IMG/VR virus record: IMGVR_UViG_3300007516_000105
Span: 1-27,707 of that record
Source of the DNA: a virus
Length of the DNA: 27,707 nucleotides
Reading direction: 5' to 3' (one strand)
Numbering within the stretch: the first letter of the stretch is position 1; every line of letters begins with the position of its first letter. The translations under genes were made by a program, and so were the position numbers. Shown in pieces: positions 2,316 to 27,351 of this stretch. The notes beneath the pieces were generated by a model that worked only from the letters and a program-made list of their open reading frames with translations, did not search any database and was not told the DNA's origin.

Positions 2316-4154
2316 ATGCAGCTAATAACGATAGACTTTGAAACGTACTACTCTAAAACTTACTCCCTTAGTAAGCGCGAGGTAACCACAGAACAGTACA
2401 TCCGGGACAAGCAGTTTGAGACCATCGGCGTCTCAGTCCAAGTGGGTGCGGGTTCCCCGCAGTGGTTCTCTGGCACTAAAGCGGCCACCAAGAAATTCCT
2501 CGACCAATTCAACTGGGCTGACGCCGCAGTAGTAGCCCACAATGCTATGTTCGACATGGCGATTCTCTCTTGGCACTACGACATACACCCCAAGAAAATT
2601 ATCGACACCCTCAGCATGGCACGTGCACTCCACCTGCAAAATGAAGTGGGGGGCAGTCTCGCTGCACTCGCGGAGCACTTCGGCCTAGGCAAGAAAGGCA
2701 CCGAGGTAATTGCCGCCATGGGCATGCGTCGGCTCGACTTCACCCCCGAAGAACTCGCTGCGTACGGCGGATACTGTGATAACGACGTAACCCTCGCCTA
2801 CAAACTATTTAAGATTCTCGCCAAGGGCTTCCCCATGCTAGAGCTGGACTTAATAGACCTCACTATAAAGATGTTCTCGGAGCCAAAAATAATCGTAGAC
2901 ACCGAGCTACTGGTTAAGCACTTGGCCAATGTGAAGCACAAGAAAGAACGCCTACTATCCCAAGCGCTCGTCACCAAAGAAGATTTAATGAGCAACGAGA
3001 AGTTCGCCAACCTGCTCATAATGTGCAACGTGGTACCCCCTACAAAAATCAGCCCTACGACTAAACTAGAAACCCACGCCTTCGCCAAGACTGACGAGGG
3101 GCTTAAGGCGTTGCTAGAGCATGAGAACCCCCTAGTGCAAACCTTAGTGGCTGCAAGACTCGGTGTTAAGTCCACGCTGGAAGAAACCCGCACGCAGCGC
3201 TTCATAGACATAGGTAACCGAGGTGCCCTGCCGGTGCCATTAAAGTACTACGCGGCACATACGGGTCGGTGGGGGGGAACCGATCTTTTAAATCTTCAAA
3301 ATGTTCCACGCGGCTCCGTATTGAAGAAGGCAATGAAAGCGCCTATAGGCACAGTGTTTTTAGACTGCGACCTTTCGCAAATCGAATGTCGTACGCTTGC
3401 ATGGTGGGCGGGGCAGGATGATCTAGTGGCGGCGTTTGATCGCGGGGACGACGTGTATAAAATCATGGCCTCCCGCATATACGGCATACCTGAATCAGAG
3501 GTAGATAAAGGCGCAAGATTTGTAGGAAAATCGACAATTCTGGGCGCCGGATACGGCATGGGTGCCAAGCGGTTTATGATTCAGCTTGCTGGTTTTGGCG
3601 TAGTCTTAGCGCTAGAGGAGTGCCAGCGTATTATCGACGTGTACCGCAGCACCTACCCGCGTATCCCCGAGCTTTGGAAGCAAGCGCAGCGCGCACTGAT
3701 CGCAATGATGCACGACAACACGGCCCCACTGGGTCTGGATGGCATAGTGGTAGTAGAGGGTAGCAACGGCATCCGCCTGCCCAACGGCCTGTATGCTAAG
3801 TATCCGGGGCTGCGCATCGAAATTAACCAAGACGACGGTGACAAAGAAATCGTGTATGACAGTTACAAAGGTAAGACGAAGGTTGCCACCAAACTATATG
3901 GGGCAAAGTTAATTGAAAACCTCTGCCAGAGCCTTGCACGTATTATAGTAGGTGAACAAATAGTGAGGGTATCCAAGAAGTACCCAGTCGTTATGACGGT
4001 GCACGACGCCATAGGGAGTTTAGTCCCTGAGAACGAGGCGGCTACTGGGCTAGAGTTCGTGGAGATGTGCATGCGTATGCGCCCCGCGTGGGCCCCGGAC
4101 CTACCCTTAAACTGTGAAGGCGGCACTGGCGCATCCTACGGGGAGTGTGCGTAA
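2316..4154 (+). CDS. Family A DNA polymerase with 3'-5' exonuclease domain
   Basis: This is the replicative polymerase of the phage, about 612 residues. The N-terminal proofreading domain has Exo I (D7-x-E9 in TIDFETYYS), Exo II (AHNAMFD near 74-80) and Exo III (Y-C-D-N-D near 153-157). The polymerase domain has TGRWGG near 315, motif A DCDLSQIECR near 349, motif B R-FVG-K-STIL-GAGYG near 400-413, and motif C VHDAI near 561. All catalytic aspartates are present. There is no 5'-3' exonuclease domain, as in T7-type enzymes. Two substitutions stand out. The residue equivalent to E. coli Phe762 is leucine (K-STI-L in motif B). The usual Glu after the motif C Asp is alanine (HDA). The start is fixed by AAGGAG at 2305-2310. 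It heads the replication module with the helicase and primase downstream. Confidence 0.95.
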   Translation: MQLITIDFETYYSKTYSLSKREVTTEQYIRDKQFETIGVSVQVGAGSPQWFSGTKAATKKFLDQFNWADAAVVAHNAMFDMAILSWHYDIHPKKIIDTLSMARALHLQNEVGGSLAALAEHFGLGKKGTEVIAAMGMRRLDFTPEELAAYGGYCDNDVTLAYKLFKILAKGFPMLELDLIDLTIKMFSEPKIIVDTELLVKHLANVKHKKERLLSQALVTKEDLMSNEKFANLLIMCNVVPPTKISPTTKLETHAFAKTDEGLKALLEHENPLVQTLVAARLGVKSTLEETRTQRFIDIGNRGALPVPLKYYAAHTGRWGGTDLLNLQNVPRGSVLKKAMKAPIGTVFLDCDLSQIECRTLAWWAGQDDLVAAFDRGDDVYKIMASRIYGIPESEVDKGARFVGKSTILGAGYGMGAKRFMIQLAGFGVVLALEECQRIIDVYRSTYPRIPELWKQAQRALIAMMHDNTAPLGLDGIVVVEGSNGIRLPNGLYAKYPGLRIEINQDDGDKEIVYDSYKGKTKVATKLYGAKLIENLCQSLARIIVGEQIVRVSKKYPVVMTVHDAIGSLVPENEAATGLEFVEMCMRMRPAWAPDLPLNCEGGTGASYGECA

Positions 4155-4340
4155 TCGTATCTATATGGCTAAGGGGAGAGAGGCCATTAAATATATCCTC
4201 CTCTGTGTGTGGCGGGGTCTTTTTTGGCGCTACTCCGATTGTGCCTTTGTTTCCGCTTCGTGCGCTCACCGGAGAAACCACGCTACGGTTAGCCCCCCGT
4301 TCGACGGCGGGGGCACCCAAATTCCAAGGAGAACAACAAG
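4155..4340 (+). promoter_or_regulatory. Structured leader between the polymerase gene and the next gene
   Basis: This 186-base gap has no convincing gene. A strong hairpin lies at 4292-4314: GCCCCC plus CGT pairs with ACG plus GGGGGC around a TCG loop, with a two-base bulge. It ends 11 bases before the AAGGAG (4326-4331) of the next gene and is not followed by a T-run, so it is not a classical terminator. A T-run at 4220-4225 follows GGCGGGGTC but has no matching upstream arm. The overlapping frames here look like noise. A regulatory leader controlling translation of the 4341 gene is possible. Confidence 0.35.
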
Positions 4341-4556
4341 ATGAATACCGATAAGCACTATGCAGATTTACTCGTACCAAAGAAGCCTAGAGTCACCAGC
4401 GCAGACGTAGAGACAAAAATACAACGCTTCATCAATAGTGGAGGGAAAATAGACGTAATCCCAACAGGCGTGTCGGGTGTAGGCGATCGCAATAACCTAG
4501 AGCTGTACGACTCAGCCCGTAAGAAAGCGCTTGCAAGTCGTATGGAGGCAAAATGA
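4341..4556 (+). CDS. Small conserved phage protein (GGKI..IPTGVSGV type)
   Basis: This is a 71-residue protein of unknown function. AAGGAG at 4326-4331 precedes the ATG by 9 bases. The middle holds VETKIQRFINSGGKIDVIPTGVSGVG, with the 'F...GGKI.VIPTGVSGV' stretch that recurs in uncharacterised phage replication-region proteins. The C-terminal part is basic and helical (SARKKALASRMEAK). A nucleic-acid-binding role would fit the charge and the position, but it is only an inference. The stop overlaps the next ATG by four bases (ATGA), which suggests coupling to the exonuclease gene. Confidence 0.65.
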   Translation: MNTDKHYADLLVPKKPRVTSADVETKIQRFINSGGKIDVIPTGVSGVGDRNNLELYDSARKKALASRMEAK

Positions 4557-5218
4557 CAGCGTGGTCCTACAGCAGCATCAAGACCTTCGACCAGTGCCCG
4601 AAGAAGTACTACCACCTTAAGGTGGCTAAAGACGTACGTGACGAGGGCAGCACCGCCACAGTATATGGTACTGAGGTTCACACCGCTGCGGAGGAGTTCA
4701 TACGCGATGGCACTCCCGTGCCGAATAAGTTTAGCTTCATGGTCCCTGCACTGGAGGTGCTAAACCGCATACCCGGAAAGAAATACTGCGAGGTAAAGCT
4801 CGGGGTTGCCTACGATGGTGAGCAGTATACTGCTACAGACTTCTTCGGCGCTGATGTGTGGTGGAGAGGTGTAGCCGACCTCGTTATAATCAATGGCCCC
4901 ACTGCGTTTAGTGTGGACTACAAGACCAGCAAGAACGCCAAGTACGCAGACACTAAGCAGCTTGACCTAGTAGCGGGGGGCATCTTTACGAAGTACCCAG
5001 AAGTGCAGAAAATAAAATCCGCGTTGGCGTTTGTAGTAAGCGGAGATGTAGTAAGCAAGGTGCATACTCGAGACTTGAAAGACTCATACATGGCGACGTT
5101 TGCGCCAGAGCTTGACCGTTTGGAAGTAGCAGAGAAGACTAATGTTTGGAACCCTGTGTCAGGCCCACTGTGTGCATACTGCCCGGTGACTTCCTGTGCA
5201 CACAACAGGAGAAGATGA
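4553..5218 (+). CDS. Cas4/RecB-like PD-(D/E)XK exonuclease with Fe-S cluster cysteines
   Basis: This is a 221-residue nuclease of the PD-(D/E)XK superfamily, similar to Cas4 and the RecB/AddB nuclease domain. It is expected to degrade DNA ends in phage recombination or replication. Motifs are visible in order: C15 in FDQCPKKYY, the motif I His (YGTEVH, H43), motif II D109 in GVADLVII, motif III D122-x-K124 in FSVDYKTSK, a Q136 helix (KQLDLVA), and a C-terminal cluster C207-x2-C210-x4-C215. The first and the last three cysteines form the typical 4Fe-4S site. Size and layout match stand-alone phage members. It overlaps the previous gene by ATGA and the next gene starts at its stop. No cas1 or cas2 gene or repeat array is present, so a CRISPR role is not implied. 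Confidence 0.88.
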   Translation: MTAWSYSSIKTFDQCPKKYYHLKVAKDVRDEGSTATVYGTEVHTAAEEFIRDGTPVPNKFSFMVPALEVLNRIPGKKYCEVKLGVAYDGEQYTATDFFGADVWWRGVADLVIINGPTAFSVDYKTSKNAKYADTKQLDLVAGGIFTKYPEVQKIKSALAFVVSGDVVSKVHTRDLKDSYMATFAPELDRLEVAEKTNVWNPVSGPLCAYCPVTSCAHNRRR

Positions 5219-5496
5219 TGCCCTACGTAAACAAACCTCGCCCGTACAAGAAAGAGTATGAACAGTACCAAGGCACTGAGGAGCAGAAGAAGAACCGTGC
5301 AGCCCGCAACGCTGCACGCGCTAAGATGGTGAAAGCTGGACGTGCTAAGAAAGGCGACGGTAAGGATGTTGACCACACCAAGGCCCTCTCTAAAGGAGGT
5401 ACTAACGACACTAGCAACTTGAAGGTGAAGTCTAAATCGGCTAACCGTAGCTTTGCACGCAACAGTGATGGCAGTATGAAAGGGGGCAAGAAGTAG
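5218..5496 (+). CDS. Small HNH endonuclease
   Basis: This is a basic protein of about 92 residues with a compact HNH-type core: DVDHTKALSKGGTNDTSNLKVKSKSANRS. The DH pair, the N of TNDTSNL and the terminal N of ANRS are the expected metal and catalytic positions. The N-terminal half is a highly charged helix (EEQKKNRAARNAARAKMVKAG). Tandem ATGs at 5215 and 5218 both fit. I prefer 5218 because the AGGAG at 5207-5211 is then 6 bases away. It lies directly upstream of the intein-containing helicase gene. It may be a host-take-over or recombination nuclease or a free-standing homing enzyme. Its position and tight spacing suggest a normal member of the operon. Confidence 0.82.
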   Translation: MPYVNKPRPYKKEYEQYQGTEEQKKNRAARNAARAKMVKAGRAKKGDGKDVDHTKALSKGGTNDTSNLKVKSKSANRSFARNSDGSMKGGKK

Positions 5497-5498
5497 CA

Positions 5499-7925
5499 AT
5501 GCGCATTGTAGATAATAAAGCACTCGTAGTTAAAACGAGGCGACCACACATCATCGTCGAGAACATCACTAAATCTGCCGTAGTAGGCAAGACGAACGAC
5601 GTATTCGAGGTGGCTGTGCACTGGGGGATAGATGAGGCGCAGAAACTTACTGCACTTAACATTGGTGGGGTACCTTCACCGATTGGCAAAGACTACAAGT
5701 GGACAGGGAAGTTCACTCCGTTTGACCACCAGCGTGAGACCTCCTCCTTCTTGTCCTTACGTAAACGAGCGTTCTGTTTCTCTGAGGCAGGTACTGGTAA
5801 GACGGCTAGTGTCATCTGGGCGGCCGATTACCTTATGCAGCAGAAACAGGTGAAACGGATTCTGGTGGTGTGCCCCCTTTCCATTATGAAAGCCGCGTGG
5901 CAACAAGACCTATTCAAGTTTGCAATGCACCGCAGCTGTGTAGTGGCCCACGGTACTGCTGAGTCCCGCAAGAAAGCGATCGCCACCGGCGCTGAGTTTG
6001 TAATCATAAACTTCGATGGCGTGGGTGTAGTCGAGAAAGAAATTATTGAAGCTAAGTTTGATATGATTGTCATAGACGAATGCTTTGTGGCGGGCACACT
6101 GGTGGATACCCCGAAAGGCCCTGTGGGGATTGAAACTTTATGCGTAGGTGACGAAGTGTTGACATCTAATGGAGTAGCACCTATAAGAAGGGTTACAAAC
6201 AAACCTGCAACTCACCTAGTGCGTATACGGACTTCTGATGGAAAAGATATTACCTGCACCCCCGAGCACCCCTTCTTCACGGATGCAGGGTGGGTTACTG
6301 CCGAACATACTGAGGGTAGAAGACTTGTATCTTTGGTTGACCTGTGCAATATGCGAGACCCCCTACCACATACACGTCTCCAAATACCAATGGCACCGCA
6401 AGAAGGGTTCCCAAACGGGGCTTGCCTGCTCACGATCTTGCGCTCGGAAGAGGTACCACTTGCTAAATCCGGGGGCCAGCTACTTCAACCGTATCCCGAA
6501 AGAACAGCGGGGGGTTTCCCATGCACCGAAGTCCCCAGAGGCGCGCGCAAAAATATCCCAGACGCTAAAAGCGAAAGGCCCTCGCCCCTCTATACGCGGG
6601 GGCAACGGGACTGGAGTTACCCCGATGGAAGCATTAGTGCAAGAATGCTTAGGTCCACAATGGGTATGGAACTACGCAGTGTCATTGGGGAGCAGGCAGG
6701 TAGGCTATCCTACGAATTACAAACTGGACTTCGCATGGCCCTCCAAGAAGATAGGGTTAGAAGTGGATGGGGGGAGCCACAGTGCGAGGAGCCGACAGGC
6801 CCAAGACCGGAAAAAAGAAGCGAGACTAGCGGAGTTTGGGTGGTCAGTGTTTCGCGTGTCGAATGTGAACGTCCAGTCCCTGTATACAACCTCGAAGTTG
6901 AAGGCACACCTAACTACTTTGTTGGGGGTGGCGCCCTAGTACACAACTGCAATGCTTACAAGAACGCCTCCACTAACCGCTGGAAAATTATGGCTCGTAT
7001 TGCCTACGGGGTTGAGTGGCTATGGTTAATGACGGGCACCCCTGCGGCACAGTCCCCGGTAGACGCCTACGGCCTAGCAAAGTTGGCTGTGCCCCACATG
7101 GTCTCCCCTTACATAGGGCAGTTCAGGGATAAGGTGCTATACAAAGTTTCCCAATTTGTATGGAAGCCCAAGTTCAATGCAGACAAAATAGTGCACGCCG
7201 TACTGCAGCCTGCGATACGCTTCGAGAAGAAGAACTGCCTCGACCTGCCACTAGTGACGCACGTAGACAGGGAAGCCCCGCTTACCCCGCAGCAAATGAA
7301 GTTCTACAAAATACTCAAGAGCAAGATGATGATTGAGGCAGCGGGGGAATCTGTTACCTCAGTTAACGCAGCGGTAAACTTGAACAAGCTCATGCAGGTT
7401 GCCTGTGGGTCGGTATACTCCGACGATGGGGACGTGGTGGAGTTTGACGTAAGCAACCGCTTGAACGCGGTGCTCGAAGTAGTTGAAGAGGCTTCCAACA
7501 AAGTGCTTATCTTCGTACCCTTCACGCACACTATCCACCGATTAAAAGAGTTCCTAGCCAAGCACAAGATCACCTCTGAGATTATCGACGGCAGCGTGTC
7601 GCTAAACACCCGTAGTCAGCACATAGCAGACTTCCAAAACAAGCCCGACCCCAAGGTGCTTATCATCCAGCCACAAGCTGCCTCCCATGGGCTTACACTT
7701 ACTGCAGCAGATACAATCATCTGGTACGCGCCCACACCAAGTGTGGAGACTTACCTGCAAGCAAACGCGCGTATCGACCGCCCCGGCCAGCATAACCCCA
7801 TGACCATCGTGCATATCCACGGCAGCGACATAGAGGAGCACCTCTACAAGATGCTGCGCAGCAATATCGACAACCACAATAAAATAGTTGATCTATACCG
7901 CGAAGTAATGAAAAGTACCCCTTGA
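5499..7925 (+). CDS. SNF2-type DEAD-like helicase precursor containing an intein
   Basis: This gene encodes an 808-residue precursor. Removing residues 195-483 leaves a 519-residue superfamily 2 helicase. Helicase motifs seen are a Q-like entry (FTPFDHQRE near 72-80), Walker A (SEAGTGKT, 95-102), motif Ia (ILVVCPLSIM), Walker B VIDE (191-194), motif III TGTP (about 512-515), motif V (ASHGLTLTAAD) and motif VI (QANARIDRPGQ, near 754). After splicing the Walker B region reads VIDE-CNAYKN, the usual form in phage SNF2-like helicases. The protein is expected to move on or unwind DNA during phage replication or recombination. It begins 3 bases after the HNH gene. The purine-rich AGGGGGC at 5481-5487 is a rather distant ribosome site. 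The stop codon overlaps the -35 of the next promoter. Until the intein splices out, the ATPase site is interrupted and should be inactive. Confidence 0.93.
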   Translation: MRIVDNKALVVKTRRPHIIVENITKSAVVGKTNDVFEVAVHWGIDEAQKLTALNIGGVPSPIGKDYKWTGKFTPFDHQRETSSFLSLRKRAFCFSEAGTGKTASVIWAADYLMQQKQVKRILVVCPLSIMKAAWQQDLFKFAMHRSCVVAHGTAESRKKAIATGAEFVIINFDGVGVVEKEIIEAKFDMIVIDECFVAGTLVDTPKGPVGIETLCVGDEVLTSNGVAPIRRVTNKPATHLVRIRTSDGKDITCTPEHPFFTDAGWVTAEHTEGRRLVSLVDLCNMRDPLPHTRLQIPMAPQEGFPNGACLLTILRSEEVPLAKSGGQLLQPYPERTAGGFPCTEVPRGARKNIPDAKSERPSPLYTRGQRDWSYPDGSISARMLRSTMGMELRSVIGEQAGRLSYELQTGLRMALQEDRVRSGWGEPQCEEPTGPRPEKRSETSGVWVVSVSRVECERPVPVYNLEVEGTPNYFVGGGALVHNCNAYKNASTNRWKIMARIAYGVEWLWLMTGTPAAQSPVDAYGLAKLAVPHMVSPYIGQFRDKVLYKVSQFVWKPKFNADKIVHAVLQPAIRFEKKNCLDLPLVTHVDREAPLTPQQMKFYKILKSKMMIEAAGESVTSVNAAVNLNKLMQVACGSVYSDDGDVVEFDVSNRLNAVLEVVEEASNKVLIFVPFTHTIHRLKEFLAKHKITSEIIDGSVSLNTRSQHIADFQNKPDPKVLIIQPQAASHGLTLTAADTIIWYAPTPSVETYLQANARIDRPGQHNPMTIVHIHGSDIEEHLYKMLRSNIDNHNKIVDLYREVMKSTP
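6081..6947 (+). mobile_element. Intein in the Walker B motif of the helicase
   Basis: A protein-splicing element of 289 residues (precursor residues 195-483) lies between VIDE and CNAYKN. Block A is CFVAGTLVDTPKGP with the N-terminal Cys nucleophile. Block B is ITCTPEHPFF, with the T-x2-H pattern, followed by WVTAEHTEGRRLV. Block F is VPVYNLEVEGTPNYFVGG and block G is ALVHN with penultimate His and terminal Asn, followed by Cys as the +1 extein residue. All splicing residues are present, so it should be active. The Hint parts cover roughly residues 195-282 and 448-483. The 165 residues between them are Pro- and Arg-rich, resemble no intein endonuclease, and are explained by an overlapping endonuclease gene in the +1 frame. 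Active-site insertion is typical of inteins. Confidence 0.93.
6238..6939 (+). CDS. EDxHD (Vsr-like) homing endonuclease, overprinted on the intein in the +1 frame
   Basis: This is a homing endonuclease read one frame off from the helicase-intein gene. Counting from the ATG at 6238 (233 residues), it has a Cys4 zinc finger (C36, C39, C64, C68). A NUMOD3-like DNA-binding segment follows (SPEARAKISQTLKAKG, 99-114). A Vsr-like nuclease domain then shows E131 (TPMEALVQE), D164 (YKLDFAWP), LEVDGGSH with H181, D190 (QDRKKEARLAEFGW) and FRVSN at 205-209. These match the EDxHD family typified by I-Bth0305I and by endonucleases found with fractured split-intein genes. The recognisable protein begins at C36 (base 6343). 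The start is uncertain: ATG 6238, ATG 6283, or TTG 6325, which has GAGGG about 9 bases upstream. Expression could be by internal initiation. The TAG at 6937-6939 lies inside intein block G. Confidence 0.88.
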   Translation: MEKILPAPPSTPSSRMQGGLLPNILRVEDLYLWLTCAICETPYHIHVSKYQWHRKKGSQTGLACSRSCARKRYHLLNPGASYFNRIPKEQRGVSHAPKSPEARAKISQTLKAKGPRPSIRGGNGTGVTPMEALVQECLGPQWVWNYAVSLGSRQVGYPTNYKLDFAWPSKKIGLEVDGGSHSARSRQAQDRKKEARLAEFGWSVFRVSNVNVQSLYTTSKLKAHLTTLLGVAP

Positions 7926-7949
7926 CATTGTCTAGTAGACAGCTATACT
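7922..7949 (+). promoter_or_regulatory. Sigma70-type promoter with an internal operator-like dyad
   Basis: TTGACA (7922-7927) and TATACT (7944-7949) are separated by 16 bases, a near-consensus sigma70 promoter. The -35 overlaps the helicase stop codon. Inside the spacer is a perfect dyad, GTCTA-G-TAGAC (7930-7940), well placed for a repressor that would block RNA polymerase. The overlapping GACATTGTC (7924-7932) recurs at 2257-2265. Transcription would start near 7956 and serve the genes from 8014 onwards (small protein, ssDNA-binding protein, helix-turn-helix protein, primase). Host RNA polymerase use is an inference from the consensus. Confidence 0.7.
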
Positions 7950-7977
7950 GACCCTCCATACACAAAGAAACACCCAT

Positions 7978-7993
7978 CTGAGGCGTGCCTCAG
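7978..7993 (+). promoter_or_regulatory. 16-base palindrome in the leader upstream of the 8014 gene
   Basis: CTGAGGC-GT-GCCTCAG is a perfect inverted repeat with 7-base arms and a 2-base centre. It lies about 22 bases after the expected transcription start and 7 bases before AAGGAG (8001-8006). The very short centre suits a DNA operator for a dimeric regulator better than an RNA hairpin, although a slightly opened hairpin is possible. The small helix-turn-helix protein encoded at 9360 is a candidate binder, by inference only. Confidence 0.5.
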
Positions 7994-8013
7994 TTGAACC
8001 AAGGAGATACACC

Positions 8014-8394
8014 GTGAACACTGAAAAACTAGTGGCTGCGTATATAAATCTACGTGACGCCATAAGCGACCACGACGCAGAGATAAAGGCCCTCAAAGAA
8101 AAGCAACAGCTCATTGCTGACGAACTCCTTGGCCTATGTGCTGAGGAAAACGCTGACAGCATCCGTACCCCGGCGGGCACAGTTTCACGCCGACTCAACT
8201 CCACTTATTGGACGAGTGACTGGGAGGAGATGTACAAGTTCATCGAAAAGCACAACGCCCCCTTCTTACTAGAGAAGCGCATTTCCACGTCGAGCATGCG
8301 TGATTTCCTAGAGCAAAACCCCGACGAGTCCCCAGTGGGGCTGCAAGCCAAACGCAATTACATCATCAGCATCCGCAAACCAACTGCCAAGTAG
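8014..8394 (+). CDS. Conserved phage protein of unknown function (coiled-coil N-terminus)
   Basis: This is a 126-residue protein with a GTG start at 8014, fixed by AAGGAG at 8001-8006 with 7-base spacing. Residues 1-50 are helical and coiled-coil-like (Y.NLRDAISDHDAEIKALKEKQQLI). The C-terminal domain holds IRTPAGTVSRR, a tryptophan pair (YWTSDWEEMYKFI), LLEKRIS and a final PVGLQAKRNYIISIRKP. The pattern 'RTPAGT ... W..... LEKRIS ... P.G......I.VR' recurs in many phage replication regions directly before an ssDNA-binding protein gene, as here. The function is unknown to me. A replication accessory role is inferred from context. It is the first gene after the 7922 promoter. Confidence 0.75.
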   Translation: MNTEKLVAAYINLRDAISDHDAEIKALKEKQQLIADELLGLCAEENADSIRTPAGTVSRRLNSTYWTSDWEEMYKFIEKHNAPFLLEKRISTSSMRDFLEQNPDESPVGLQAKRNYIISIRKPTAK

Positions 8395-8403
8395 GAGAAT
8401 ACT

Positions 8404-9360
8404 ATGGGCACTAATGTAGGAATATTCACAGGCGGTACACAGGTTATAACCTCTGACCGTAGAAAAAGTAAACTGGCTGAATCTTTAGCCTCCTCCGGCA
8501 TGACCGGGCGCCGCATCCAGACCAACACTAATGGTACCTTCAAGCGCCTTGTAAACGGGGAGCAGGTTGGGAACGCTATCCGCGGTGAGCTGAATGTCAT
8601 TATTGTTGGGGCTCTGCCGCAAGTGTCCCGCATACTCTATAAGGCTGAGTATGACCCCGAGGCAGAGGCTACGTTGCCTAACTGCTGGTCGAATCTTGGC
8701 GACAAGCCAGAGCCCGGTGTTGCGCACCCAGAGCATACTAATTGTGCTGAGTGTCCGATGAATATCCCCGGCTCGGGTAAGCAGGGTAAGCGCGCATGCC
8801 GATACCAGCGTCGTATCTCTGTGCTCGTAGAGGGTGATAGTTCCGGTGAGGTGTACCAGTTCAACGTCCCGGCTAAATCGCTGTTCGGTAAAGGCACCGG
8901 CAATGTGCATCCCTTCGAGAGTTACATTAAGTTCTTGCTGGCCAACGGGGAATCCCCTGACAATGTCGTTACCCACACCGAGTACGACCTTAACGCCGAG
9001 ACTATGGAGCTGCAGTTCTCTCCAGTGCGCAATACCACGGACGAGGAGTACGAGCTTGTAGTTGCTGCACAAGAGCGCCCTGAGACTGAGTTGTACACAA
9101 AGATTACTGTAGGGCATACGGATGGGGTAACTAAGAAAGCCCTTGATAAGCCCACAGAGAAGAAGCCAGTGGTACAGCGCTCTGACGAGCCTGACGACGA
9201 GCCCGCACCGGCCAAGAAAGCTGCTAAGCCACCTGTGGACGACACGGACGAGGAAGAGGCTCCAGAGCCAACCAAGCGCCCTAAGAAAGCCGCTGCGGAA
9301 GAAGCAACTGAAACTGATGACCTCGCTTCCGTTCTGGATGCGTGGGGGAGTGACGACTAA
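8404..9360 (+). CDS. Predicted single-stranded DNA-binding protein with acidic tail
   Basis: This is a 318-residue protein. The first 200 residues are rich in beta strands and include a Cys set (LPNCW, HTNCAECPMN, RACRY) that could bind zinc. Residues 235-318 form a disordered Pro-, Lys- and Glu-rich linker ending in DDLASVLDAWGSDD. An acidic tail ending in hydrophobic residues and Asp is the hallmark of phage and bacterial SSB proteins, where it contacts polymerase, helicase or primase. Together with its place between helicase and primase genes, this supports an SSB role similar to T7 gp2.5. The N-terminal fold was not proven by eye. AGGAG at 8394-8398 sets the start. The stop overlaps the next ATG (TAATG). 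Confidence 0.7.
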   Translation: MGTNVGIFTGGTQVITSDRRKSKLAESLASSGMTGRRIQTNTNGTFKRLVNGEQVGNAIRGELNVIIVGALPQVSRILYKAEYDPEAEATLPNCWSNLGDKPEPGVAHPEHTNCAECPMNIPGSGKQGKRACRYQRRISVLVEGDSSGEVYQFNVPAKSLFGKGTGNVHPFESYIKFLLANGESPDNVVTHTEYDLNAETMELQFSPVRNTTDEEYELVVAAQERPETELYTKITVGHTDGVTKKALDKPTEKKPVVQRSDEPDDEPAPAKKAAKPPVDDTDEEEAPEPTKRPKKAAAEEATETDDLASVLDAWGSDD

Positions 9361-9590
9361 TGAACTACGGCTACAGCACAAGTATTGTTTCCGCTAATAA
9401 GGCCGCCTCGGAGGAATCCCTCGGGGTACAGCTCGGGCGCGTCTGCATAGAGCATAAAGTGCCTGTGGCCGTGGTTTCTGACCGACTGTGTGTAAGTAGG
9501 CAGACGGTGTACAACTGGTTTACCGGAATATCTATGCCTAATCAAAGCACGGAACGTCGGGTACTCCAGTTTATAGCCCGGTACAAGTAA
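9360..9590 (+). CDS. Small helix-turn-helix DNA-binding protein
   Basis: This 76-residue protein consists mainly of a Cro/CI-type helix-turn-helix. Residues 22-60 read LGVQLGRVCIEHKVPVAVVS, then DRLCVSRQTVYNWFTGISMP. The turn and recognition helix (VSRQTVYNWFTG) are clear. It is probably a phage transcriptional regulator. The nearby dyads at 7930-7940 and 7978-7993, upstream of its own operon, are candidate sites and would make it autoregulatory. It starts at a TAATG junction with the SSB gene, so it is made together with that protein. No oligomerisation or effector domain is present. Confidence 0.78.
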   Translation: MNYGYSTSIVSANKAASEESLGVQLGRVCIEHKVPVAVVSDRLCVSRQTVYNWFTGISMPNQSTERRVLQFIARYK

Positions 9591-9647
9591 CCCCCTGAAA
9601 CAACAATAACCGAGGAAACTCGGGGGGCACTGCTCCCTCTAAAAACC
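9591..9647 (+). promoter_or_regulatory. Structured leader of the primase gene without a clear ribosome binding site
   Basis: The 57-base gap folds well. CCGAG-GAAA-CTCGG (9610-9623) is a perfect hairpin with a GNRA tetraloop. GGGGGC-ACT-GCTCCC (9623-9628 and 9632-9637) forms a second stem that shares its first G. CCCCC at 9591-9595 could also pair with the G-run. No Shine-Dalgarno sequence is seen in the 10 bases before the ATG at 9648; the bases there are CTCTAAAAACC. The G-run is 20 bases away and likely paired. Confidence 0.4.
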
Positions 9648-12530
9648 ATGGAAAACTTCGACCTCATATCATATGTACAACCGACGGATGGGTGGTTCGT
9701 CGTGATTGGGATTAAAGGTAAGAAAGGGGTTAGGCAGCATATAGGGGCCACCCGTGCCGAAGCCGACACCGCTATAGAAAGATTTACTTCCCAAGGACGG
9801 GATGCCTATTTCGCAGTGGCTAAGTTCAAGTCCAATGCAAACCGCACCAACGCAAACGCAGGCTCCCTGAAAGCGTTCTGGCTCGACATAGACTGTGGTG
9901 CTGATAAGGCCGTGGTTAACGAGAAGACAGGGGTACCTGCGGGTTACGCCACCCAGAGCCTAGGGTTACAGGCACTCAAGAGCTTCTGCCTCACAGCGGG
10001 GCTCCCTAAGCCTACCATCGTCAACTCTGGCCGTGGTCTGCATGTCTACTGGGTGCTAGATGAAGCTATAACCCCAGCCCAGTGGCAACCAGTGGCTGAC
10101 AGGCTACGTGCAGTATGCGTGGCGCAGGCACTCTACGTAGACCCTGCGGTTTTTGAAACGGCGCGCGTCCTGCGTGTACCCGGCACACTGAACTACAAAG
10201 ACACTCCACCTAAGCCAGTCTCCGTTATCACAGTAGCCCCAACACTGTCTCTTGCAGAATTCAAAGAGGTATTAGGCGGCCAAGGTATGGAGCCACTCCC
10301 TACCAAGCCAGTACGTGAGCTGACGGCATTGGGTAAGTCCCTGCTTGGCAACATAGACACTACGTTCAGTAAGATAATGCTGCGCAGCGCTAAGAAGCAT
10401 GGGTGCCAACAACTCCTAGATTGCTACGTGAACCGAGATTCTCTGGCCGAACCACGGTGGTTCAACGCCCTGTCTATTGCCAAGTTCTGCGTGGACAAGA
10501 CTGCAGCCATACACAAAATGTCTGCCGGCCACCCTGACTATAACCCACACGACGTTGAGCATAAGATACGGGGTATAAAAGGCCCTCATTCCTGTGCTGA
10601 GTTTGCTAAGGCTAATCCGGGTGGGTGTGACGGGTGCCCCCATAAGGGCAAGATAACGAGCCCCATAGTGCTAGGTAAGACACTGGCCAAAGCGGAGGAA
10701 CCCCCCGTAGAGGAGGAGCTGTACGACGAGGAGATAGACTTATCGGTTAGCACTTCCACAGGCAAGCACATATACAAGATGCCGCCACCGCCACCTCCCT
10801 TTTTCCGCGGTAAGAACGGAGGTATCTATCTCGACTCTGGGGAGGAGGAAGCGGAACCCGTGCTGGTATACGAGCACGACCTATACGTTGTGAAGCTGAT
10901 GCACGACCCGATAAAAGGCTACGTAGCGGTGCTGCGTGCGCACCTGCCTCAGGATGGGGTAATCGAGTTCGTTATGCCTACTACAACGGTGACTGAGGGC
11001 AGGGAGCTGCGCAGGGAGCTAGCAAGGAGTGGCGTGATCGCCTCAGACGCACGCTACAAACAAATAACCACGTACATCATCCTCTCTATACGAGAGTTGC
11101 AGATAGCATATAAGGCGGAACTCATGAGACTTCAATTTGGTTGGGCAGATAAAGACAGTAAGTTTATTGTGGGGGACAGGGAGATTACCAAGGACGGCAT
11201 ATACCACAGCCCCCCTTCTAGCACGACCAGCACTATGTCGGGGCACTTTAATACGTGCGGGGAGCTAGACCTATGGAAGGAAGTGTTTGCCCTCTATGGC
11301 CGCCCCGGTCTGGAGATACAAGCGTTTGCTGCTTTGTCGGGCTTCGGCGCCCCCCTACTCAAGTTCACTGGGCAAAAAGGGGCAGTGATAAACCTTATAC
11401 ATTCTGGCGCAGGCACAGGTAAAACTACTGCTCTGCGCATGGCTAATAGCATCTTTGGCCACCCGGAATACCTGCTAGGCAACCCCAACGACACCAAGGT
11501 GGGGCGCACGATAAAGCTCGGCATCTTGAACAATATCGTCAACACCATAGACGAGGTGACTAACATGGAGGCGAAGGAAGTCTCCGAGGCACTGTACGAG
11601 TTCTCCCAAGGGCGCGGCAAGGACAAAGCCAAGTCAGATGCCAACCAGCTACGCGAGAACAATACTACGTGGCGCACCATCACCGTGACCAGCTCCAATG
11701 CCTCATTGGTGGAAAAGCTAGGGGTGTTGAAGAGTTCCCCCGACGGTGAGCTCATGCGGCTACTGGAGTTCAAGGTCGGCTACACTGACGTGGGGGTTAT
11801 CTCAACGGAGGAGGGCAAGGCCATGTTCGACCACCAGCTCATGCTTAACTTCGGGCTAGCCGGTGAGGTGTTTGCACAGTGGGTAATAGGCAACCTAGAG
11901 GAAGTAGTCCAGACCGTACTGCGCATCCAGAAGAAGATAGACACTGAGCTGCGTCTAACCCAGAGGGAGCGTAACTGGTCGGCAGTGATGGCAGCCAACA
12001 TCACCGGGGGGCTAATAGCCAAGCGGCTGGGTCTTATTGACTGGGATATGAAGCGTATCCACAATATAGTAGCCCTAAGCATAGCGGAGATGCGCGACAC
12101 GGTAACAGCCCCGGTGAGTGACGCCAGCGCGGTAGTAGGTGACTACATATACCGACACAACCGTAACATGCTGGTAGTGGATAACGGCGTGGACAAGCGC
12201 AGCAACATGCAGAAGTTCCCTATACTAGAGCCCTTCGGTGCCCTCCTCATGCGGTACGAGCCCGACACTAAGTTGCTATTCATTAAGTCCAAGGAGTTTA
12301 AGGACGACTGCGTTAAGAACCAAGTGAACTACCGGGATACAGTGAAGGCACTGACGGCTAGTGGCATGCTGATTGAGGTGGCGAACAAGCGCCTGAGTAA
12401 GGGTTCCAAGATAATAAGCACCGGGGTACACTCACTCGTGCTAGATGGCAGCAACCCGGACTTCATTGACATGGAGCCTATAATAGTAACTGCAGGAGGC
12501 CCGCTCGCTGATGCAGGTGGAGAATCTTAA
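9648..12530 (+). CDS. Primase-helicase: AEP-type primase fused to an ATPase/helicase
   Basis: This 960-residue enzyme should both prime and unwind DNA at the fork. Residues 1-190 form an archaeo-eukaryotic primase-type domain, with FWLDIDCG (D80 and D82, metal ligands), NSGRGLHVYW (126-135, with the motif II His) and ARVLRVPGTLNYKD (172-185). A linker region with HSC, GGCDGCPHKG (about 325-340) may bind zinc. The C-terminal half is an AAA+/SF3-like ATPase of the DUF927 type: Walker A GAGTGKTT near residue 588, Walker B NTIDEV near 630, and a polar strand ITVTSSNAS near 680 (sensor 1). It is the last large gene of the plus-strand unit and follows the SSB and helix-turn-helix genes. The ATG at 9648 agrees with the expected N-terminus, although it lacks a clear ribosome site. 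Confidence 0.88.
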   Translation: MENFDLISYVQPTDGWFVVIGIKGKKGVRQHIGATRAEADTAIERFTSQGRDAYFAVAKFKSNANRTNANAGSLKAFWLDIDCGADKAVVNEKTGVPAGYATQSLGLQALKSFCLTAGLPKPTIVNSGRGLHVYWVLDEAITPAQWQPVADRLRAVCVAQALYVDPAVFETARVLRVPGTLNYKDTPPKPVSVITVAPTLSLAEFKEVLGGQGMEPLPTKPVRELTALGKSLLGNIDTTFSKIMLRSAKKHGCQQLLDCYVNRDSLAEPRWFNALSIAKFCVDKTAAIHKMSAGHPDYNPHDVEHKIRGIKGPHSCAEFAKANPGGCDGCPHKGKITSPIVLGKTLAKAEEPPVEEELYDEEIDLSVSTSTGKHIYKMPPPPPPFFRGKNGGIYLDSGEEEAEPVLVYEHDLYVVKLMHDPIKGYVAVLRAHLPQDGVIEFVMPTTTVTEGRELRRELARSGVIASDARYKQITTYIILSIRELQIAYKAELMRLQFGWADKDSKFIVGDREITKDGIYHSPPSSTTSTMSGHFNTCGELDLWKEVFALYGRPGLEIQAFAALSGFGAPLLKFTGQKGAVINLIHSGAGTGKTTALRMANSIFGHPEYLLGNPNDTKVGRTIKLGILNNIVNTIDEVTNMEAKEVSEALYEFSQGRGKDKAKSDANQLRENNTTWRTITVTSSNASLVEKLGVLKSSPDGELMRLLEFKVGYTDVGVISTEEGKAMFDHQLMLNFGLAGEVFAQWVIGNLEEVVQTVLRIQKKIDTELRLTQRERNWSAVMAANITGGLIAKRLGLIDWDMKRIHNIVALSIAEMRDTVTAPVSDASAVVGDYIYRHNRNMLVVDNGVDKRSNMQKFPILEPFGALLMRYEPDTKLLFIKSKEFKDDCVKNQVNYRDTVKALTASGMLIEVANKRLSKGSKIISTGVHSLVLDGSNPDFIDMEPIIVTAGGPLADAGGES

Positions 12531-25034: not shown

Positions 25035-26878
25035 TACCGTCTCCCATCAGGGCGCAGGTCTATCCGCGGGGCGCCTAGTTGCCAATTAACACCGAGCTCA
25101 CTGGAGGAGACTTTCATCGCCATCTGCCGGCCACGCACCCGCACAAAAACTTCCCCTGTGAACTCCTCTATAGGGAGTGCCGCAGTAAGGGTGACATCCC
25201 CGCTGTTAACCCCTCCAGTGGAAGTAGGGGATGTATACCCCGACCCAGAGTTTTTAAGGGGGTACAACGTCATGAGGGCAGTAGGGGCGGTAGACTCTGA
25301 CCCGGTAAAGCTCATGTCCGGTAGCACGCGCCAGATAAAGGCAAACTGATGCCCGTCGTCCAAATCAAACTCAGAAGACAATATGTAGGCCGATATAGGC
25401 AGTGTAGTGCTGGTCTCTTTGTCGTCGTTCCCAACCTCATGGTATATAAGGTTGTAGTTGTACCCCGCCGCTATAGGGTTAGAGCGCAGGCTAGTGTCCA
25501 GCCACGCCGTGCGGGCCATGCTGCCGTAGTACCACAGGTTCTCTAGGTAGTGGTACACCACGTAGCTGTCTATGGTGCGGGAGTCCGCGGAGCAGTAGAA
25601 CCACCATATTTCGTGGTAGCCCTCGTTGGTCCCAGCGATGATTTGCGCATACTGCTGCTTGTTCATGTCTCCGAATACGTGTTTACGCAGGTCACAGGGC
25701 AGTGGGGCTACGGTACCATCATATTTGTAGAACTTATCCTTCCCCATCCAAAAGGCAGTGCCTGCAACATACGCGACCGCATTTTGGCTTGCAATTGAGG
25801 TATTGTCTCCAAGTAGCTGCGCACCCCACCCCTCTGGGGCTCCCAAGTATTGCAGGGAGTATAGGGCAGCATCAGTCCATACAAGCACTTCCTGCCTAGC
25901 TTGTGCGGAGGTTACAATTTCAGACCCGCGGGAGAGGCGTAAATCCCCCGCTTGGTTTAGTGGGTCTGGGGTCCACATGGCGATGTTTTCTTGGTCTGCC
26001 CATCGTATGAGCATCGGGTCAAGGACAGTGGAGCCCAGTGGGGTACACCCCATAGCAAAAGTAAACCTGCTTATGTCTGATACGGCCACAGTAAGCACTT
26101 TGGTAGGGACATCAGAGGCACCCGCCAGCGCAGAGACAAGTATGCCTCTCGTACTGACTGTATTAGTAGCATCCCAGTAGTAGAGCGCCCCACCCCGGTG
26201 GTTAAACACGAGGTCCTCCCCGAAGTTAGCTTGGCTCCACAGGCGTATAGTACTTGCTGCCCCACCGCCAAACCCCCACACACCAGAGCCGAAGCGCCCT
26301 GCACCCCAGCCAAGTCCCGGTACAGTAAACGCATACCCTACGTTGATCTGGTACGCTGCGGAGACTGAACCCCCGCCGGTTGCTGTTGAGGTTGCTGCAC
26401 TGGCTGCTTCTATAGTGTAGGTATCCACAGTCAGGACAATAAGCGAGTATTCCCCGGCAATAGTAAGCCCCCCAACGGCCGAGGCCCCGCTGAAAGTAAC
26501 GTAGTCCCCAGTAAAGCACCCATGGGCTACGTCAGTAACAGTGACTACTGTGTTCGTGTCAGTGGTATCAAAAGGGTTTGTGAGCGCCGCAGTACGGCGG
26601 AGGGGGGTGATGTCATAGTACGCACCCCCACGCTCTAGGTAGTACTTGAGGTTGGTGCCCACACTTACGAGGTTCTGATTAGCCAGAGTCACCCAGTTCC
26701 AGAGTGAGCGGCATACCCCCAAATAGGTATCCGCTGAGATACGCTCCCACCCCCCGATCTTCTCAGGGCTGCCTTGGCGGAAGCGAATCTTGTCAGACTC
26801 ATACCAACCACCTTCAGTGGTGTACCGGGTGTTCTCCCGGTTGACGCCGGGGCGTAGCTCTAGCTTCTTTAAGGGCAT
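25034..26878 (-). CDS. Large tail / virion structural protein (RFRQGSPEKIGGW type)
   Basis: This is a 614-residue protein. The start (PLKKLELRPGVNRENTRYTTEGGWYESDKIRFRQG) and the following EKIGGW are typical of a common structural protein of podovirus-like marine phages, placed where other phages have tail tube or stabilising proteins. The body is beta-rich, including repeated strand and turn patterns (DTYTIEAASAATSTATGGG; ALYSLQYLGAPEGWG). I could not match it confidently to T7 gp12 or P22 gp10, so I only call it a tail or virion protein. The ATG overlaps the lysozyme stop by one base (TAATG). Confidence 0.7.
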   Translation of the reverse strand: MPLKKLELRPGVNRENTRYTTEGGWYESDKIRFRQGSPEKIGGWERISADTYLGVCRSLWNWVTLANQNLVSVGTNLKYYLERGGAYYDITPLRRTAALTNPFDTTDTNTVVTVTDVAHGCFTGDYVTFSGASAVGGLTIAGEYSLIVLTVDTYTIEAASAATSTATGGGSVSAAYQINVGYAFTVPGLGWGAGRFGSGVWGFGGGAASTIRLWSQANFGEDLVFNHRGGALYYWDATNTVSTRGILVSALAGASDVPTKVLTVAVSDISRFTFAMGCTPLGSTVLDPMLIRWADQENIAMWTPDPLNQAGDLRLSRGSEIVTSAQARQEVLVWTDAALYSLQYLGAPEGWGAQLLGDNTSIASQNAVAYVAGTAFWMGKDKFYKYDGTVAPLPCDLRKHVFGDMNKQQYAQIIAGTNEGYHEIWWFYCSADSRTIDSYVVYHYLENLWYYGSMARTAWLDTSLRSNPIAAGYNYNLIYHEVGNDDKETSTTLPISAYILSSEFDLDDGHQFAFIWRVLPDMSFTGSESTAPTALMTLYPLKNSGSGYTSPTSTGGVNSGDVTLTAALPIEEFTGEVFVRVRGRQMAMKVSSSELGVNWQLGAPRIDLRPDGRR

Positions 26879-27351
26879 TACTCACCGCCGGGTTGCATTA
26901 GGGCCGCTTCTGCTTCACGGCGTCGGACTAGTCCGGGGAGTATCTTACCCCCGCTTCTTCGCCACTTACGCAGCTCAAGAATGGCTTCGTCCCAGTTAGA
27001 TTCCTCTACTCTCTTTCTTAGCGTGCTTGCTCGATACCGAGAAACACCTAGATTATACGCGAAATCATTCAATGCACCCAAGGCTTTGGGGTTGGTAAAT
27101 AGGTTTGGGGAGGCCCGTAAGACCCCCGCCAAGTAATCGTTGAGCAGTGTGTACTTGAGCCAGCTTAGCGCCGTCGGCTCATCTATCGCAGGGTCGTGCT
27201 CTGTGACCCTCTTACCATCAGGTTTATACACTGTACCATACCCAATAGTCCAGTACCCCGCAGGGCATAAGTATGGCTTAGCCCGGAACCCCTCGAAGTG
27301 TTTGCACAGTTGGGTGGCTATTTGCAGGGCTTCACTTAGAGGTGCGCTCAT
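26878..27351 (-). CDS. Endolysin, T4-type lysozyme (glycoside hydrolase 24)
   Basis: This is a 157-residue muramidase that cuts the glycan chain of peptidoglycan and releases progeny. The GH24 catalytic triad is seen with the exact spacing E20-x8-C29-x5-T35 in HFEGFRAKPYLCPAGYWTIGYGT, with Cys in place of the Asp found in some members. NDFAYNLG (residues 96-103) is the usual second motif. There is no signal peptide or hydrophobic anchor, so export should depend on the holin encoded directly upstream. The weak purine-rich site before the ATG (GGGGGCGGG) and an 11-base gap link it to the holin gene. The lysis genes lie at the upstream side of the late operon. Confidence 0.92.
   Translation of the reverse strand: MSAPLSEALQIATQLCKHFEGFRAKPYLCPAGYWTIGYGTVYKPDGKRVTEHDPAIDEPTALSWLKYTLLNDYLAGVLRASPNLFTNPKALGALNDFAYNLGVSRYRASTLRKRVEESNWDEAILELRKWRRSGGKILPGLVRRREAEAALMQPGGE

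Follow-up and report, generated by a model that had tools for sequence, protein, structure and literature searches.

A phage helicase intein with a putative homing endonuclease gene overprinted in its +1 reading frame

Bifunctional inteins with LAGLIDADG or HNH endonucleases, such as PI-SceI, consist of Hint halves with an endonuclease between blocks B and F, and are mobile at conserved protein motifs. Dassa et al. (2009) reportedly described fractured genes with split inteins and EDxHD endonucleases, and a 2025 preprint by Gosselin et al. is said to describe actinophage inteins with a 'non-canonical architecture'. A literature search, with Dassa 2009, Gorbalenya 1998 and Gosselin 2025 outside its scope, found no endonuclease overprinted on a continuous intein. 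In the ShiLan element, an endonuclease is hidden out of frame in an in-frame insertion and the host frame is open; the element has no Hint or splicing domain, its HNH endonuclease is in the third frame, and it has no detectable RBS (PMC11855218). I-Bth0305I has been grouped among the group I intron homing endonucleases (PMC3943268).

The window analyzed here is a 27.7 kb virus record (27,707 nucleotides from a metagenomic viral contig), in which a helicase CDS (5499-7925) contains an intein (6081-6947). The data indicate that this is very probably a mobile intein with a homing endonuclease gene overprinted in the +1 frame, rather than fused in frame, with both splicing and cleavage putative. 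The N-extein (5499-6080, plus strand) is a SNF2/DEAD-like phage helicase of the PHROG 62 type that ends in ...MIVIDE, a Walker B motif; the C-extein (6948-7925, plus strand) begins with CNAYKN. Profile searches match the helicase to Pfam SNF2-rel_dom and Helicase_C, and to PHROG 62 at 5e-95. Its flanks form a replication cluster (2316-12530) that includes a family A DNA polymerase, a PD-(D/E)XK nuclease and a DUF927 protein, and a phage lysozyme gene lies on the minus strand at 26878-27351. Directly 5' of the helicase, a small ORF (5146-5496) contains an HNH-like stretch (VDHTKALSKGGTNDTSNL), with no Pfam match at E 0.001. A search for a self-splicing RNA intron gave no Rfam match over 5400-8100, even at E 1.

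In the helicase frame (frame 0), the continuous intein spans 289 residues (6081-6947, plus strand) and has the features of a class 1 Hint domain (Cys/Ser 1, block B TxxH, C-terminal HN, Cys/Ser/Thr +1): C1; block B, TCTPEH (6252-6269); block F (6882-6929); a terminal HN; and C+1. The initial annotation had recognized Hint halves here, and profile searches of the frame-0 product bear this out (Hint_2, 5e-10; Intein_splicing, 3e-9; TIGR01445, 3e-7; TIGR01443, 4e-5; Pfam and NCBIfam), with PDB profile matches also recovered. Structure models were built with AF2 from alignments of 53 nuclease and 38 intein sequences, each without GenBank-derived loci. In the intein model, both Hint halves adopt a Hint fold with pLDDT of about 95, and Foldseek matches the intein to Hint structures (2lwy, E 1e-7, TMt 0.85). 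Between the halves, intein residues of about 86-250 (6336-6830, plus strand) form an open filler that is predicted to be disordered, with residues 93-249 at pLDDT 30-45 save for one short helix. Both halves lie on a single ORF in the window, while they lie on separate ORFs in four relatives. Judged by these motifs and profiles, 6081-6947 is a class-1-type intein that is predicted to splice.

The +1 frame is stop-free from 6220 to 6939 and contains a nuclease ORF of 233 residues (6238-6939, plus strand) that overlaps the C-terminal Hint region. This product matches DUF559 (PF04480) at 3e-7, with 30.6 bits against a curated cut-off of 20.6, and PHROG 503 at 6e-9; it also matches MTES_1575 below the cut-off and, weakly, Vsr. 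Three regions are apparent on the plus strand: a Cys4 zinc finger (CAIC ... CSRSC, 6343-6441), whose Cys columns reach at least 90% conservation among 53 homologues; a helical region (PKSPEARAKISQTLKAKG) with an RGGNG motif (6526-6609); and a catalytic core (6718-6864) made up of YKLD (6718-6729), EVDGGSH (6760-6780), an Asp (6805-6807) and FRVSN (6850-6864). Across the 53 homologues, D135, G149, H152 and D161 are invariant and E146 is at least 90% conserved, while the Glu of the first helix is conserved in alignment A1 but falls below 90% in alignment A7. The Cys4 finger and the D/H/D residues of the initial annotation are recovered; its NUMOD3-like motif, at 6526-6609, has no match to Pfam NUMOD3, and the sequence and conservation of this region suggest that it is probably a DNA-binding linker.

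The nuclease model, which begins at 6325, has a mean pLDDT of 89.9 (53 aligned sequences) and a Vsr-like fold, with I-Bth0305I (3r3p) recovered by Foldseek at probability 1.00, E 9e-3 and TMt 0.58-0.60. A profile comparison with I-Bth0305I gives E 0.003. The His of the nuclease has no His partner in the 3r3p alignment. The E-values of the fold matches are weak, yet they agree with the profile matches, and the endonuclease similarity on which the original proposal depended is present at both levels. Taken together, this supports the assignment of the +1 product as a zinc-finger, EDxHD/DUF559-type endonuclease with putative cleavage activity.

The two frames share bases at 6840-6939 (plus strand), where frame 0 encodes the C-terminal Hint strands and block F and the +1 frame encodes the nuclease end. 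The positions first given for this overlap are exact: 6840-6860 for VVSVSRV in the intein and, as above, 6850-6864 for FRVSN in the nuclease. The third frame is closed by a TAA at 6464, as claimed, but earlier stops exist from 6131 on. A chance of less than 0.0001 had been attached to the open intein frame, which is too strong for a single locus. When the nuclease codons are shuffled synonymously, 4.4 stops are expected in frame 0 of the window core alone, and the probability of none is 0.0025.

Homologous loci were collected from viral contig scans, one genome scan (MAGs) and cultured phage records, giving 203 unique nucleases. Both Hint halves are recognizable in 185; the other 18 records comprise nine free-standing genes and nine without a recognizable Hint half, mostly at a contig end. 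The nuclease lies in the +1 frame relative to the Hint halves in 185/185 loci, and in frame 0 or +2 in none. The halves form one ORF in 180 of these loci, and frame 0 is interrupted between them in five. All loci share the overlap of the nuclease ORF with the C-terminal Hint region, and the nuclease stop codon falls within the intein in 175/179. Among the 180 open loci, C1 is retained in 178 and the last Asn in all, Cys or Ser occupies +1 in all, and Ser replaces the His before the last Asn in 20. The exteins are SNF2-like helicases and clamp loaders, along with one D12 methyltransferase and some that are terminase-like or lack a clear assignment. In one case (L066:2093-6193), an ORF of 1367 residues apparently carries two inteins, of which the overprinted nuclease belongs to one and an in-frame LAGLIDADG_3 domain to the other. 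The overprint is also found in cultured phages, among them the Vibrio phages CP-T1, K391 and 159E43-1b, Pseudomonas phage MR14 and Corynebacterium phage phi673.

At the family level, a chance open frame is rejected. When the codons of each nuclease are shuffled synonymously, a locus is expected to have 8.9 stops in frame 0, and 0.57 loci are expected to be fully open, as compared to 180/185 observed, which upholds the original reading of an overprinted gene on a continuous intein frame. In the open loci, nuclease codons that precede AA, AG or GA end in T in 0/6353 cases, as compared to 37% in other contexts. As the 180 loci were chosen because a single ORF holds both of their Hint halves, the zero counts of stops and of T arise partly by construction; for this reason all 185 two-half loci were counted, and free-standing and fractured homologues, which are natural controls for selection on each frame, were compared. 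In these controls, T-ending codons before AA, AG or GA reach 35% (nine free-standing genes) and 42% (five broken loci). Frame-0 stops number 3-30 in free-standing homologues and 15-35 in four fractured loci, and a single TAG is present in L155. Frequent stops, which had been named as evidence against the proposal, are therefore seen just where the two halves are physically separated or there is no intein, indicating that they are purged only where the intein is read through. The lone TAG (L155:4111) sits in an otherwise overprinted intein and could be an early fracturing step or a sequencing error.

Per-position divergence among 34 close relatives distinguishes the two frames. In the exteins and Hint-N, changes concentrate at frame-0 third positions (about 0.54-0.57). 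In the nuclease core, they instead favor the third positions of the nuclease frame (0.47 versus 0.29 and 0.27), and this frame has a pN/pS of 0.45, as compared to 1.15 for frame 0. The joining stretch had been described as non-protein filler; consistent with this, frame 0 encodes no conserved protein there and simply shadows the nuclease gene. Every codon position evolves slowly in the C-Hint overlap, where divergence at frame-0 third positions falls to 0.28, as compared to 0.56 in Hint-N and the N-extein. As measured by codon divergence, the nuclease is under purifying selection, and neither frame varies freely in the C-Hint overlap. The dual coding is genuine, conserved and under selection, and a function as a mobile intein is strongly implied.

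The production of the nuclease would require a second start within the intein mRNA or a change of frame. A Shine-Dalgarno match of at least five bases accompanies 52/154 nuclease-frame ATGs within 12 codons of the zinc finger, as compared to 43/1106 internal and 2/93 out-of-frame ATGs (family-wide p 2.7e-26, nominal because the loci share ancestry and are not independent), which favors independent initiation inside the intein. In the window, the candidate starts are ATG 6238, a position common to close relatives, and TTG 6325, with GAGG nine bases upstream; its Shine-Dalgarno sequence is either weak or paired with TTG. The GAGG...TTG at codon -37 in close relatives may mirror the Val-Glu-Val of Hint-N, and was for this reason not used as evidence. 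If the nuclease were instead made by +1 ribosomal frameshifting, the product would be an N-extein-Hint-N-nuclease fusion. The +1 ORF does open inside Hint-N in the window family, 2/180 loci have no ATG, GTG or TTG upstream of the finger, and the window start is weak. This route is nonetheless improbable, given the strong enrichment of Shine-Dalgarno sequences just before the finger and the ATG starts, at or near the same place, of free-standing and fractured homologues. Internal initiation is supported across the family, and can be inferred for the window locus.

Three further explanations concern the locus itself. The window is a metagenomic viral contig, in which assembly or sequencing indels might have displaced an ordinary in-frame endonuclease. 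The probability of this is close to nil: the same +1 offset recurs in 185 unique loci, across numerous independent contigs and in cultured phages that were sequenced separately, by which an artefact is refuted, and the conserved ends of intein and nuclease occupy shared bases, so that compensating indels fail as an explanation, as first argued. A gene decaying as a passenger within an intein that needs only an open linker would fit the unconstrained filler, and the homologue search, which needed a recognizable nuclease, under-samples decayed copies; against the nuclease pN/pS, and against the invariant D/G/H/D and conserved finger columns in homologues about 31-61% identical to the window nuclease, decay is very unlikely. 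Finally, the nuclease could act on another target or in another role, with the intein serving as a mere safe harbor, as the nine free-standing homologues might suggest. This is distinctly improbable, as the residues preceding the intein are DE, at Walker B, in 163/180 loci, and the nuclease co-occurs with Walker B inteins across helicases, clamp loaders and other genes.

The insertion site also provides evidence for mobility of the overprinted intein. Eighty helicase alleles lack the intein, and their alignment shows no interruption at this position. Here, the +1 residue is mostly Ala in the empty alleles but Cys in intein-bearing ones, a pattern that fits co-conversion as well as a requirement for a nucleophile at +1. 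On the helicase tree, which includes one distant outlier, the plus row L233, intein presence and absence needs eight changes, at least six of them forced by well-supported branches, and the window helicase groups with intein-less relatives. The empty alleles and patchy distribution support mobility, as read from these alignments. A likely sequence of events would involve: translation of the helicase frame into a precursor, in which the Hint halves fold around the long stop-free linker and splice out to restore the helicase; a second initiation within the intein mRNA, yielding the +1 zinc-finger, Vsr-like EDxHD/DUF559 endonuclease; cleavage by this enzyme of helicase genes that lack the intein, at their Walker B codons GAY GAR; and recombination that would copy the intein along with the Cys+1 codon. 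In one contig (L118:3959-4937), an intein-less DEAD helicase is frameshifted by one base precisely where the intein usually inserts (GATGAA CGGA CACCACGCAGC), and a free-standing nuclease homologue lies directly upstream. The frameshift may be a scar left by repair at the homing site, or else an error in sequencing.

In a tree of 160 nucleases, for which no root was inferred, the four fractured loci (L115, L124, L197, L134) form one clade nested among overprinted loci, and free-standing genes occur at about five places. The C-half ORFs of the fractured loci have ATG codons inside the nuclease gene end. The simplest reading of this topology is that fractured loci were derived from overprinted ones by loss of the open frame. 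A plausible origin for the overprint is a mini-intein that acquired a nuclease gene by insertion while selection kept the intein frame open. More broadly, the balance of evidence leans towards overprinted inteins as a widespread mobile class, with splicing domain and homing endonuclease in different frames, from which split inteins arise when frame 0 is no longer open. The overprint may thereby explain the birth of naturally split inteins, an origin that is testable.

For DNA phages, this is a rare instance of overlapping genes that are long and conserved and whose two products can each be assigned a known fold and an inferable function. In the five cultured-phage records, only the helicase (or host gene) is listed across the intein and no nuclease is annotated; the locus breaks the assumption of in-frame fusion, and annotation therefore overlooks the nuclease. 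With this double-coded design in at least 180 phage loci, intein search practice must change. The family is also a source of many compact splicing domains and of new candidate site-specific nucleases.

The window locus has both similarities to and differences from each of the described systems. It shares the Hint halves, the endonuclease position and the conserved insertion motifs of in-frame bifunctional inteins, but its endonuclease lies in +1, overlaps Hint-C, and is in frame in 0/185 loci; five other phage inteins (L381-L385, in methylases, portal, polymerase and others) have no overprinted nuclease, and their endonuclease region, where there is one, is LAGLIDADG-like and in frame. The fractured genes share the nuclease type between two Hint halves and the setting in phage replication genes, but the window intein is one continuous ORF. 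I-Bth0305I (EDxHD, 3r3p) and the DUF559 endonuclease-like 3hrl resemble the window nuclease in catalytic fold and, in part, in active-site motif; I-Bth0305I differs in its group I intron context (PMC3943268) and in its low sequence similarity. ShiLan is the nearest published out-of-frame endonuclease, likewise hidden in another frame with the host frame kept open. In contrast to ShiLan, the window has a true intein with a Hint domain, its nuclease is of the EDxHD/DUF559 type rather than HNH and lies in +1, and its family shows Shine-Dalgarno enrichment.
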